Shown piece by piece: positions 51,834 through 56,050 of a stretch of 64,000 bases of DNA. This DNA is from Acidipila rosea (GTDB lineage: Bacteria > Acidobacteriota > Terriglobia > Terriglobales > Acidobacteriaceae): assembly GCF_004339725.1 (NCBI RefSeq), contig NZ_SMGK01000001.1, positions 868,001-932,000 of the forward strand, given 5' to 3'. The position numbers were made by a program, and so were the translations under genes. How positions within the stretch are numbered: the stretch's first letter is position 1; the number at the start of each line of letters is the position of its first letter. A model generated the notes under the pieces. That model worked only from the letters and a program-made list of their open reading frames with translations, did no database searches and had not been told where the DNA came from.

Positions 51834-52250
51834 CTATTCAATCTGAACAGCGGGATAGGCTTCGGTGTATTCCTCGCCGCTGCAGCCCAGATACGTCACC
51901 GTGCGCGCGACGAAATCAACATCGTAGCGAACGATTCCGGCTCCCCAGGTAGCTGCGAGGAATTCAGGAAAGGTGCTTTCGCCAGCCTGGTCGATTCGCA
52001 GAGCCTTGATGAGGGCCTCTCTATCGAAGCCTGGAACATCCGCAGTGCCTGAAACCAGCGGTGTTCCTTGCATCACCACCGGCCCGTGCCCAGTCAGGAA
52101 CAGGCTTTGGCAAGCCGGGAGCGACCAGATGTTGCGAGAGACTCCGGCCTGTCGCAGGCACTCGGCAAGATAAGGGAATCCCCCCACCTTCGGGCGGATC
52201 GCTGCCGCTCTCTGCATTGCCGTGTTCAGATTGTCGATTGCCTTGCTCAT
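51834..52250 (-). CDS. DUF1398 (YbcV-like) protein
   Basis: A 138-residue cytoplasmic protein of the YbcV family: GGFPYLAECLRQAGVSRN, LPACQSLFL and the C-terminal VTYLGCSGEEYTEAYPAV are typical. The function of this family is unknown. ATG 52250 has AGGAGA at good spacing and is preferred to the in-frame start at 52298. It lies 44 bases downstream of the MarR gene in the same direction, so the MarR protein probably controls it. Confidence 0.85.
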   Translation of the reverse strand: MSKAIDNLNTAMQRAAAIRPKVGGFPYLAECLRQAGVSRNIWSLPACQSLFLTGHGPVVMQGTPLVSGTADVPGFDREALIKALRIDQAGESTFPEFLAATWGAGIVRYDVDFVARTVTYLGCSGEEYTEAYPAVQIE

Positions 52251-52294
52251 CCTGTCTTCTCCTTTTGCCATGCATGGATTGGTCATAAGTTGCG

Positions 52295-52768
52295 TCATTC
52301 GATCGGGACATCGCGGATCTGATGACAGGTTGCGAGCTTGCCAAGCAGACGGCCAAGCGACTGTCTTTCGTCGGAGTCAAGACAGGCGAAAAACTGATCG
52401 TCGTTGCGATCGGCAATCTTCGCCAACTCAGGAACAATGCGCCGTCCGGCGGCTGTCAACGAAAGCAGTTGGACACGATTGTCCTCGGGCTTGACCCGCC
52501 TCCTGATCCAGCTTTTCGCCTCTACTTTGTCGAGGATCTTGGAGACCGCTCCGCGAGTCATCGTCAGGGCGTCGGCCAGTTCTCCCGGCGTTGCCTGCCT
52601 CCTGTCATAGAGCTGGCGCAGCAAAACCCACTCGGCGACGGAGGTCCGCTTGGCCTGCAGCGCCCGGGCAAAATTGCCCGAGACCGCATTCGACACCCGC
52701 CGGAGGCAATACCCCAGATGAGTTTCAAGATCCGAGACGGGTGCAGTGGTCTCCGAAGTAGTTTCCAT
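52295..52768 (-). CDS. MarR family transcriptional regulator
   Basis: A 157-residue winged-helix repressor: an N-terminal dimer helix, then VAEWVLLRQLYDRRQATPGELADALTMTRGAVSKILDKVEAKSWI as recognition unit and the wing RRRVKPEDNRVQLLSLTAAG. The start is best placed at ATG 52768. Upstream in-frame ATG/TTG codons lie inside the promoter and operators (52776-52804). The predicted transcript start nearly coincides with this ATG, so the mRNA may be leaderless. It probably represses itself and the DUF1398 gene. Confidence 0.88.
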   Translation of the reverse strand: METTSETTAPVSDLETHLGYCLRRVSNAVSGNFARALQAKRTSVAEWVLLRQLYDRRQATPGELADALTMTRGAVSKILDKVEAKSWIRRRVKPEDNRVQLLSLTAAGRRIVPELAKIADRNDDQFFACLDSDERQSLGRLLGKLATCHQIRDVPIE

Positions 52769-52804
52769 GGAAACAAGTATGATTTCCATGGAAACCATTG
52801 TCAA
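52761..52804 (-). promoter_or_regulatory. MarR promoter with two palindromic operators
   Basis: On the minus strand TTGACA (52799-52804), a 17-base spacer and CATACT (52776-52781) form a sigma-70-type promoter. A TTTCCATGGAAA palindrome fills the spacer (52783-52794). A 14-bp version, GTTTCCATGGAAAC (52761-52774), covers the start point. Operator centres are 21 bp apart. Binding would block RNA polymerase directly. Confidence 0.75.
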
Positions 52805-52971
52805 CTCTCTCGGCTGGCAACTGGAGATATCGGCAAGCTTCTGCGGAGATGATGCTCAAGTCCGTCGCCTGCGCGTGCAACTACGACGGCTCCCTGCCCT
52901 GTTCCCCTCGCGGAACACCTTGCCGGCTTCATCACCTCGTGCGTCGCCCTCCGGTTTCGCCACAAGCCCAC

Positions 52972-55428
52972 TTATTCGACGCGGAGTGCGGACATGGGCT
53001 CGAGTTTGGAGGCGCGGTGAGCGGGAATCCACGTGGCGGCGAGTGCCACCATTGTCAGGATGATAGGGACGGAGATGAAGACGAGCGGGTCCCAAGCTTT
53101 GATTCCGTAGAGGAAGCTTGCGATGAGGCGAGTGAGGCCTAAGGCAGCTCCTGTGCCTATGACGACACCGATGATGGCGAGGGTCATGCCCTGGCGAACG
53201 ACGAGGTTGCGGATTTTGGCGCGGTCGGCTCCGAGCGCCATGCGGATGCCCATCTCCTTCGTGCGCTGCTGGACGGAGTAGGCCATGAGGCCGTAAATGC
53301 CGATGGAGGCGAGGATGAGCGCGCAGACCCCGAAGATGGTGAGCAGCAGCATGTTGAAGTTTTCGCGCGCGGTGGAGAGGACGACCACTTCATCCATGGT
53401 ACGGATGTGGGCGACGGGGAAGCCTCCGCTGGCCTGACGGAGCTGCTCGGTAATCGCGGAGATGTACTGGTGGGGATCGCCGTGGGTGCGGACGAGCCAG
53501 GCGATGGGGCCGATGCGGGCGTTGAGCGCGGTCAGACCGTCTGGGACCTGAGACTGCGGCACGATCATCAGCGGGCGCGGTTCCCGGTTGAGACCGCCGT
53601 CCCGGATGTCTCCGACGACACCAATGATTTGGCGGGCGGGCTCTACATACTCGGGGCCGATGCCTTTGCCGATGATGATCTGCTGGCCGATGGGGTTGCC
53701 TTTGGGCCAGTACTGCTTGGCCATAGTTTCATTGATGATGACCACCCCGGCGGCTCCGGTGGAGTCTTGTATGTTGAAGTCACGGCCCTGGAGGAGGGGA
53801 ATCTTGAAAACGGAGAAATACCCGGGTGAAGCGCTCATCCAGCCGGCGCCGCCGGTGTAGGGGCTTTTGCCGGTGGGGCGGCCTACGACATTGAAAGGCA
53901 GTCCGAAACCGCCTTGCAGGGGGATGCAGCAGCTTGAAGCTGAGGCTTCGACGCCGGGAATGCTGTTAAGACGCTCGCGCGCATCCCGGATTAGCTGGGC
54001 GACCCCGGCGGTCTTCTGATATTTGTCTCCTGTCAGAGACATTTCCAGCGTGAGGACGTGGTGCGGGTTGAATCCGGGATTAACGCCGCGCAAAGCGATG
54101 TAGGTGCGAATGAGCAGGGCGGCGCCGATCAGGAGGATGAGGGCGAGCGAGACTTCGCTGATCACAAGCAGCGAGCGGCCCTTGCTCTGACGGAATCCGG
54201 TACCGGCGCGGTTGCTGCCCTCCTTGAGCGTGGCATTGAGATTGGGTCGCGCCGCTCCGATGGCGGGGAAGAGCCCGAAAAGGATTCCGGTGAACACGGA
54301 AACCCCAAGGGTGAAGAGTAGAACGCGCCAGTCGATGCCGACGGCGGCCCCATGCTCGCCGATGCGAGGAATATCGCCGGGGTTCAGAGCGAGAAGAGCG
54401 CGCACGCCGACGAAGCCGAGGAGGAGCCCGAGGATACCTCCAGCGGTGGCGAGCAGAATGCTTTCGGTGAGCAGCTGGCGGATGATGCGCACGCGGCCTG
54501 CTCCCATGGCGGAGCGAATGGCGAATTCGCGCTTGCGCCCCGTAGCGCGGACGAGGAGGAGATTTGCGACATTGGCGCAGGCGATGAGAAGGACGAAGCT
54601 CACGGCTCCTATGAGCACGAAGAGCGAGGAGCGCACGCCGCTGACGATGGCATCGCGGAGAGGCTGGACGCCGTATGTTTCGTGAGGATCGAGCATGTTG
54701 GGATAGCTGCGGCGGAACTGGTCGGCGGCAATTTTCATCTGGGCGTTCGCCTGGGCCAGGGTGACTCCGGGCTTGAGGCGGCCAGCGACGAGGAAGTAGT
54801 GGCCCTGATCGTTGCTGTTGGGGTCGAACTGGAAGGGCAGCCAGAGGTCGGCGGGAGGATCGGTATAGAAGGATTTTCCGATGACGCCGAGGATGGTGTA
54901 AGGCTCATTTCCAAGCATCAGAGCCTTGCCGACGATGTGTGGGTCGCCGCCAAAGCGGCGCTGCCACAGGCCGTAGCTGATAACGACGAGGTGGCCACTG
55001 TTGGGGCGGTCTTCCTCTTGTGTGAAGGTGCGTCCGAGGATGACCGGGGCGCCGAAGAGAGCGAAATACCTCTGCGTAACATGGAGGCCCTGGACGAGCT
55101 CAGGACGACCGCCAGTGATGTTGTAGCCGGGGCCGCCGAAGTCATAGGCGGCGACATCCTGCACGACCTTGGTCTGCTGCTGCCATGTCTGGAAGTCGGT
55201 GGCGGAAGCGACAGGTCCGTTGCCTTGGGGCGATGTGTGCATGAACAGGACGATGCGGCCCGCGTCCGGATAGGCGAGCGGTTTGAGCAGGACACTATCG
55301 ACAACAGTGAAGATGGCGGTATTGACCCCGATTCCCAGAGTGAGTGCCGCCAGGGCAGCGAAGATAAAGCCGGGGTTGTTGGCGAACATGCGCAGCGCGT
55401 GCTTGATGTCTTTCCAGAGGGCGTTCAT
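52972..55428 (-). CDS. ADOP-type MacB-like permease (intact)
   Basis: An 818-residue permease of the acidobacterial duplicated orphan permease type. It opens with an ADOP N-terminal segment (DIKHALRMFANNPGF), then FtsX/MacB halves with LTLGIGVNTAIFTVVDSVLLKP, a periplasmic MacB core, three central helices (LLIACANVANLLLVRATGRKREFAIRSAMGAGR) and a repeated second half. No ATPase is adjacent. ATG 55428 follows GGAG by 7 bases; the frame continues to 55572 but without conserved sequence. Unlike the copy at 5.2-7.7 kb it is uninterrupted. Confidence 0.9.
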   Translation of the reverse strand: MNALWKDIKHALRMFANNPGFIFAALAALTLGIGVNTAIFTVVDSVLLKPLAYPDAGRIVLFMHTSPQGNGPVASATDFQTWQQQTKVVQDVAAYDFGGPGYNITGGRPELVQGLHVTQRYFALFGAPVILGRTFTQEEDRPNSGHLVVISYGLWQRRFGGDPHIVGKALMLGNEPYTILGVIGKSFYTDPPADLWLPFQFDPNSNDQGHYFLVAGRLKPGVTLAQANAQMKIAADQFRRSYPNMLDPHETYGVQPLRDAIVSGVRSSLFVLIGAVSFVLLIACANVANLLLVRATGRKREFAIRSAMGAGRVRIIRQLLTESILLATAGGILGLLLGFVGVRALLALNPGDIPRIGEHGAAVGIDWRVLLFTLGVSVFTGILFGLFPAIGAARPNLNATLKEGSNRAGTGFRQSKGRSLLVISEVSLALILLIGAALLIRTYIALRGVNPGFNPHHVLTLEMSLTGDKYQKTAGVAQLIRDARERLNSIPGVEASASSCCIPLQGGFGLPFNVVGRPTGKSPYTGGAGWMSASPGYFSVFKIPLLQGRDFNIQDSTGAAGVVIINETMAKQYWPKGNPIGQQIIIGKGIGPEYVEPARQIIGVVGDIRDGGLNREPRPLMIVPQSQVPDGLTALNARIGPIAWLVRTHGDPHQYISAITEQLRQASGGFPVAHIRTMDEVVVLSTARENFNMLLLTIFGVCALILASIGIYGLMAYSVQQRTKEMGIRMALGADRAKIRNLVVRQGMTLAIIGVVIGTGAALGLTRLIASFLYGIKAWDPLVFISVPIILTMVALAATWIPAHRASKLEPMSALRVE

Positions 55429-56050
55429 TGTGTGCTCCGTTAGGGAGTGGCTGCAAAAGTTCTGACTTGCTGGTGATGCCTTTGCTGACACCGAACTGAG
55501 ATATACGGCTCGCTCCGCATCAGAGTTCAACCGGATGTGAAGGTTGGACGAGAAAGAGGTTGGGTGAATCAAGGGTGCGGCAAAATAATGGGAGTTGGAT
55601 GTCTGGCCTGAGACTTCCTCCCTGACGAGCTCTCGACACCAGAGCTGCAGCCGGTGTTATTGGATCGATCAAGCCTGTAAAGCCGAACCGTCCGGTCAAA
55701 GTCGTCTCCCAAATCGGTTACGAATATAACTGGCGAGAAAAGGGCGGTCCAGTACCAAATCGCCCCAGGCTAAGTGGATTTATTGATGAGTAATAAGATA
55801 GTCGGCCAGCATTCGTCAGCTTTATCGCCGCGTCGACCGCATGAAGCCGGATGCCCCACGTCTCGATTCTGAGACCTGGGATCGCAAGAACTCTTCCCAG
55901 CTACGGATTACTCTCTGAGCCCTCATGTCGCCGACACGCGGCTCATGCAAATCGTCAGCTGCTCGCCCACGACGAGCGCGTCGTATCCCGAAGTATCATG
56001 CTCTCTTTCACAGGAGCTGTTCTCAGGAGGCGCCAGGCTCGTCAAAATCC
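55429..56050. other. Gene-free stretch upstream of the second ADOP gene
   Basis: About 620 bases with no recognisable gene. It contains the upstream region of the permease, unstructured sequence, and the second copy of the ~85-bp repeat (55862-55947). No operator like that of the first ADOP gene (TGTCC-N6-GGACA) was found here. Confidence 0.5.
55862..55947. repeat. Diverged ~85-bp direct repeat, copy 2
   Basis: Partner of 51534-51622. On the minus strand it reads open for more than 40 codons (HEPRVGDMRAQRVIRSWEEF and onward) to a stop at about 55811, so the repeat may derive from the end of a lost gene. Confidence 0.75.

Follow-up and report, generated by a model that had tools for sequence, protein, structure and literature searches.

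The 64,000-nt stretch analysed here (the window), from the genome of the acidobacterial soil bacterium Acidipila rosea, carries on its minus strand a gene for a MarR-family regulator, followed 44 nt after its stop codon by a gene for a DUF1398-like protein. The promoter elements and two palindromes, the candidate operators, are packed around the marR start codon (coordinates are those of the window; the basis of each assignment is given in brackets):

52799..52804, minus strand: -35 hexamer TTGACA (sequence, promoter scan, relatives)
52782..52795: operator 1, GTTTCCATGGAAAT, in the spacer between -35 and -10 (sequence, relatives)
52776..52781, minus strand: -10 hexamer CATACT (sequence, promoter scan, relatives)
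52761..52774: operator 2, GTTTCCATGGAAAC, 14 bp and perfectly palindromic, centred on the ATG and the predicted transcription start (sequence, relatives)
52768, minus strand: predicted transcription start, the A of the start codon and 8th base after the -10 (from the spacing)
52295..52768, minus strand: MarR-family regulator, 157 aa (METTSETTAPVSDLETHLGY...), stop codon included (Pfam, structure model)
52259..52264, minus strand: Shine-Dalgarno sequence AAGGAG of the DUF1398 gene (sequence)
51834..52250, minus strand: DUF1398-like protein, second gene of the operon (PF07166, annotation of relatives)

Along the minus strand the order is TTGACA, a 17-bp spacer (52798-52782), CATACT, 7 nt and ATGGAAACT, the ATG occupying 52768-52766. 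Operator 1 is a single base short of a perfect palindrome, the centres of the two operators are 21 bp apart, and the 3′ half of operator 2 covers the Met and Glu codons and the initial two bases of the Thr codon. An earlier note on this DNA had claimed this very arrangement, a promoter with one palindrome in its spacer and another over the start point at a distance of 21 bp, and all of it is present on the minus strand. A sigma-70-like scan of 52250-53100 returned a single promoter match, TTGACA/CATACT, against a mean of 0.2 in shuffled sequences, and found no second promoter in that interval; the promoter weights, like the anti-Shine-Dalgarno (anti-SD) sequence used below, were entered by hand. 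Upstream of the promoter and on the same strand lies a permease-like ORF (52972-55572, 866 aa from a TTG), which we take to resemble the FtsX/MacB-type permeases common in Acidobacteria.

The 157-aa protein matched the MarR profile PF01047 with 49.7 bits (cut-off 24.6). In the AlphaFold2 prediction (mean pLDDT 78.1; of the five models, two exceeded 70 and three were near 40) it has the winged-helix fold of the MarR family. The best Foldseek match of the model was DNA-bound MftR (E 1.6e-7), followed by MarR of E. coli (E 2e-7). Residues 1-11 have a pLDDT below 50 and form a disordered tail in the model. Among the named MarR equivalogs in NCBIfam (BilQ, MprA, HpaR, MarR, FabT, SlyA and others), all 11 matches stayed under their cut-offs, the best being BilQ with 48.7 bits against 125. 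A role in a defence system was considered and dropped, the PADLOC matches having E values of 0.003 or worse, which we took for generic winged-helix similarity.

The second gene scored 19.7 bits with PF07166 (E 0.00095), below the Pfam gathering cut-off of 22, and its counterparts in relatives carry the DUF1398 annotation in public records, including those of plasmids. A DUF1398 homologue follows the MarR gene in all 17 close acidobacterial loci described below and in 46 of 55 loci across Acidobacteriota and Pseudomonadota, so that the two genes form a conserved pair. A structure search with the DUF1398 protein gave no clear solved match (7ong, molecule name SAKe6BE-L1, at E 7e-5, where no single stretch passed by itself), and a literature search on DUF1398 gave no functional lead.

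Promoter spacing and ribosome-binding sites in related loci

Relatives came from three sources: 31 of 298 genomes of the order had a match, as did 10 of the 80 genomes searched among 114 further ones of the family (G299-G412), and a scan of GTDB contigs yielded 80 loci, of which 21 (L046-L066) were kept and 59 (L067-L125) were left out as weak, partial matches of 24-46% identity. After 7 duplicates had been dropped, 55 distinct loci remained, and 53 of these were scored, L060 and L065 being without a candidate start 24-45 nt before the anchor. We distinguished 17 close acidobacterial loci, the window included (group A), 8 proteobacterial loci, 7 of them scored (group B), and 29 other scored loci from the window's own family, nearly all of them more distant paralogues (group C). 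In a quick tree, a weakly supported branch (SH-aLRT 69) set group A apart.

To look for leaderless spacing, the 100 nt ahead of each start were scanned for the best -35/-10 pair. In all 17 group-A loci the gap between -10 and ATG measured exactly 7 nt, with TTGAC- as the -35 in 16 and TTGCC- in L048; the -10 of most relatives is CATAAT or TATNAT-like. The position of ATG 52768 inside operator 2 and at the predicted transcription start, which the earlier note had proposed for the window, is the rule in this group. Gaps of 6-7 nt were found in 36 of the 53 scored loci compared with 2.6% of 3180 dinucleotide shuffles, and together with a promoter score of at least 9 in 33 of 53 compared with 0.09%. 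They were distributed as 17/17 in group A, 1/7 in group B and 18/29 in group C. For L018 and L048 the start had been set by hand to the operator-2 ATG that aligns with the other loci; with the starts that the script had first chosen for these two, the count is 34 of 53. As controls, none of 15 DUF1398 starts had a gap of 6-7 nt, and none of 87 first-ATG ORFs of at least 150 aa in the window combined such a gap with a score of at least 9.

Transcription most commonly starts 7 nt after the -10 and prefers a purine. With a gap of 7 nt the commonest distance falls one base before the A of the ATG, and a very short leader of 1-5 nt, from a start within TGTTTCC, would leave both operators and autorepression unchanged. 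We consider such a leader unlikely, as the purine preference favours the A of the ATG, and group-C paralogues often have a gap of 6 nt, which brings the A exactly to position 7.

The MarR gene has no Shine-Dalgarno sequence at a usable distance, and the downstream gene usually has one. Calculated over 16 nt, the anti-SD energy was +1.0 kcal/mol for the MarR gene of the window, with a group-A median of +0.6 and a lowest value of -2.7, and the duplex at the DUF1398 gene of the window reached -7.1 kcal/mol. When 22 nt were considered, the group-A median was -3.3, which we attribute to the GGAAA of operator 1, located upstream of the predicted transcript start. In group C, the 18 loci with leaderless spacing had a median of +0.7 and 9 leadered loci one of -6.4 kcal/mol (Mann-Whitney p = 1.9e-4; as the homologues are related, p-values here overstate independence). 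L033 was counted as leadered in this test (scan gap 51), though TTTACT-17-TACTCT-6-ATG is visible by eye. The group-C paralogues are mostly of two kinds, promoter-abutting without a Shine-Dalgarno sequence or leadered with one. The suggestion of the earlier note that the regulator is probably translated without a leader agrees with the fixed 7-nt gap and the lack of a usable Shine-Dalgarno sequence in group A. According to the excerpt of a survey of sequenced genomes, leaderless genes occurred in 3 of 3 acidobacterial genomes and made up a mean of 13.3% of genes, which would make the mechanism at home in the phylum (PMC3160421).

Start codon and paired operators

The reading frame of the MarR gene is open upstream of 52768, to 52804 and beyond, and contains ATG 52789, ATG 52798 and TTG 52804. 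The earlier claim that 52768 is the only sensible start therefore does not hold for the window taken by itself; it does hold in that none of the others is conserved. The operator-2 ATG is the one start common to all 17 group-A loci, and in L017, L020 and L026 it is the sole possible one. Operator 1 contains an ATG in 10 of the 17 and a GTG in 2, while the remaining 5 lack a start codon there; of the 17, the window alone has an ATG at the 52798 position. The longer forms of MarR are hence most likely by-products of the repeated palindrome. The alternative is an mRNA starting further upstream, with MarR translated from ATG 52798 (MVSMEIILVSMETT...) or ATG 52789, the repeat then being two coding copies of VSME plus the operator. 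The 21-bp distance, which holds both operator ATGs in one frame, would fit it, and a GAGAG located 6 nt before ATG 52798, at Shine-Dalgarno distance, counts against the leaderless reading. This second alternative is nevertheless quite improbable, given that its start codons are missing from so many relatives, that three loci carry a stop in frame and lack any upstream start, and that the scan of 52250-53100 revealed no promoter from which the longer mRNA could originate.

The pair of operators at 21 bp is intact in 16 of the 17 group-A loci, the exception being L024, in which operator 2 has decayed. The spacing is 21 bp also in 6 of 8 group-B loci (26 bp in L063 and 22 bp in L064) and in 3 of 3 further loci from the search of the Burkholderia family. 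This conservation indicates that the operators exceed chance, as does the genome-wide search for the palindrome that had been proposed as a check: neither the 64-kb window nor the 4.21-Mb genome holds any site besides operators 1 and 2 with 0-1 mismatches to GTTTCCATGGAAAC. Allowing up to 2 mismatches raised the genome-wide count to 16, versus 8 with the reversed control pattern, so this wider list is mostly background, and a search for a regulon with GTTTCCNNGGAAAC at up to 1 mismatch gave 8 sites versus 11 with the reversed control. With no further near-exact operator and no excess over this last control, a regulon beyond the operon is not claimed. A literature search on TTTCCATGGAAA together with MarR found nothing related.

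The idea that operator 2 also encodes the first codons is supported by codon 2. All 17 group-A loci have GAA at this codon, and the other Glu codons in these genes comprise 93 GAA and 95 GAG (binomial p = 6e-6 against 93/188, with relatedness ignored). Codon choice here shows a constraint at the DNA level. Given the disorder of residues 1-11 in the model, an N-terminus dictated by DNA should cost the protein little.

We assign the palindromes as putative MarR binding sites by their position and palindromy. MarR sites cannot be defined from sequence alone, and the palindromes could in principle be bound by another regulator at a gene that is simply leaderless, but this is the least probable of the alternatives, because the operator pair accompanies the MarR-DUF1398 operon in Acidobacteriota as well as in beta- and gammaproteobacteria, with little change in spacing, and because the genome holds no other near-exact copy, which is what a local autoregulator would lead one to expect.

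A candidate leaderless autorepressor operon and its parallels

We consider it likely (probability about 0.8) that marR and the DUF1398 gene form an autorepressed operon with a leaderless mRNA and two MarR dimers on paired operators. RNA polymerase would use TTGACA-17-CATACT and begin the transcript with the A of the marR ATG, and 70S ribosomes could initiate on the 5′-terminal AUG of the resulting mRNA. Two MarR dimers, bound to the CCATGG-centred palindromes, one in the spacer and the other across the start point, would exclude the polymerase; being 21 bp or two helical turns apart, they would occupy the same side of the DNA helix. A ligand would release the dimers and open the promoter. Operator 2 would at the same time be coding sequence, its centre being the AUG and its right half the Glu codon (GAA) and the start of codon 3. 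With no ribosome-binding site before marR and a strong one before the DUF1398 gene, each transcript would probably yield little repressor and more DUF1398 protein.

The closest experimentally tested parallel, judging from the excerpt of the report (PMC3017554), is AcuR, a TetR-family protein of Rhodobacter sphaeroides. Like MarR in the window, AcuR is an autorepressor encoded by the first gene of its operon (acuR-acuI-dddL), it lacks a Shine-Dalgarno sequence, an inverted-repeat operator overlaps its promoter, and the downstream genes are translated better (PMC3017554). The acuR transcript was mapped exactly to the AUG by experiment, whereas the start in the window is a prediction (PMC3017554). 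Unlike the window, acuR has one promoter-overlapping operator, TAATAGAC-n6-GTCTATTA, and the excerpt places no operator over the start codon (PMC3017554).

CrtR, the carotenogenesis repressor of Corynebacterium glutamicum, is likewise of the MarR type, negatively autoregulated and reported as leaderless, but its gene is divergent from the target operon and its own promoter is poorly understood; the excerpt of that report mentions no paired operator over the start codon (PMC5401885). CvkR, a MerR-type regulator of cyanobacterial CRISPR-associated transposons, is a further leaderless repressor, whose start was corrected by comparison of homologues and by its coincidence with the mapped transcription start (PMC9938897). 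It differs in its protein family, in repressing cas12k and tnsB, and in a gene that lies reversed beside cas12k, as described in the same excerpt (PMC9938897). The cI gene of phage lambda and the tetR gene of Tn1721 are cited in the excerpts as autoregulated repressors with leaderless mRNAs, as proposed here (PMC3017554, PMC9938897). Unlike the window, these two belong to different protein families and to mobile elements. Their operators are located elsewhere relative to the start codon.

Our literature search, with subscription papers largely outside its reach, found leaderless autorepressors and none with an operator reported as the start codon plus the following codons. Leaderless autorepressors as such are known, and what is modestly new here is that codons 1-3 are part of an operator; it is the combination alone that is unusual. 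If the proposed reading is correct, a single DNA site would bind the repressor and hold both the transcription start and the start codon. The layout is conserved in Acidobacteriota, a phylum with few studied promoters, and it shows where proteins of this MarR subfamily truly begin, a position that ORF callers may place too far upstream.

Operators and start codons beyond group A

Both operators are kept in the proteobacterial loci L058, L059, L060, L061 and L066, with operator 2 centred on CCACGG, and translation must begin downstream in these loci. L062 has the acidobacterial arrangement. In L064 and L145-L147, from the Burkholderia group, the CCATGG of operator 2 is kept at the predicted transcription start, and its ATG is out of the MarR frame. 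These ATGs open MEI*, MVIM* and MEVTR* and, in L145, a longer frame. They are possibly 5′-terminal mini-ORFs ahead of a leadered MarR start, 5′-terminal AUGs being able to bind ribosomes in E. coli according to the excerpt of one report (PMC4965119). With the ATG of L064 and L145-L147 out of frame at about the same place relative to the promoter, an ATG in this position can belong to the palindrome alone, and these loci speak against reading any such ATG, on its own, as a start. More distant alphaproteobacterial plasmid loci (L148-L156) have related palindromes by eye and starts further downstream, several of them after a GGAG-like site.

Since proteobacteria keep the operator pair and most of them start downstream, operator and start codon are separable features. 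The relatives thereby offer a natural series, in which the start lies in the operator, has moved downstream, or the AUG is out of frame or removed, and this series makes it testable why repressors are so often leaderless. It is conceivable, though we would offer it as speculation, that the start codon of the repressor arose from its own operator, the CCATGG centre having supplied an AUG at the transcription start that acidobacteria came to use, whereas in the Burkholderia group this AUG survives as a 5′-terminal start out of frame and in other proteobacteria the centre changed to CCACGG. Repressor binding, the starts of transcription and translation and the N-terminus would then all depend on a single DNA element, and repression would evolve together with translation initiation.

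In L065 (MAG bin_225) only one operator is left, as though the repeats had lost a 21-bp unit, the -10 included, from between them. The reading frame of this locus appears broken, through real decay or a collapsed assembly repeat.

In group C (L028-L045 and L127-L136), palindromes with the same or similar half-sites, AGTTTCC/GGAAACT or AGTTGCC/GGCAACT, were recognized by eye at shifted positions, some of them holding the -35 TTGAC inside the left half-site. This pattern suggests that the operators have drifted relative to the promoter.
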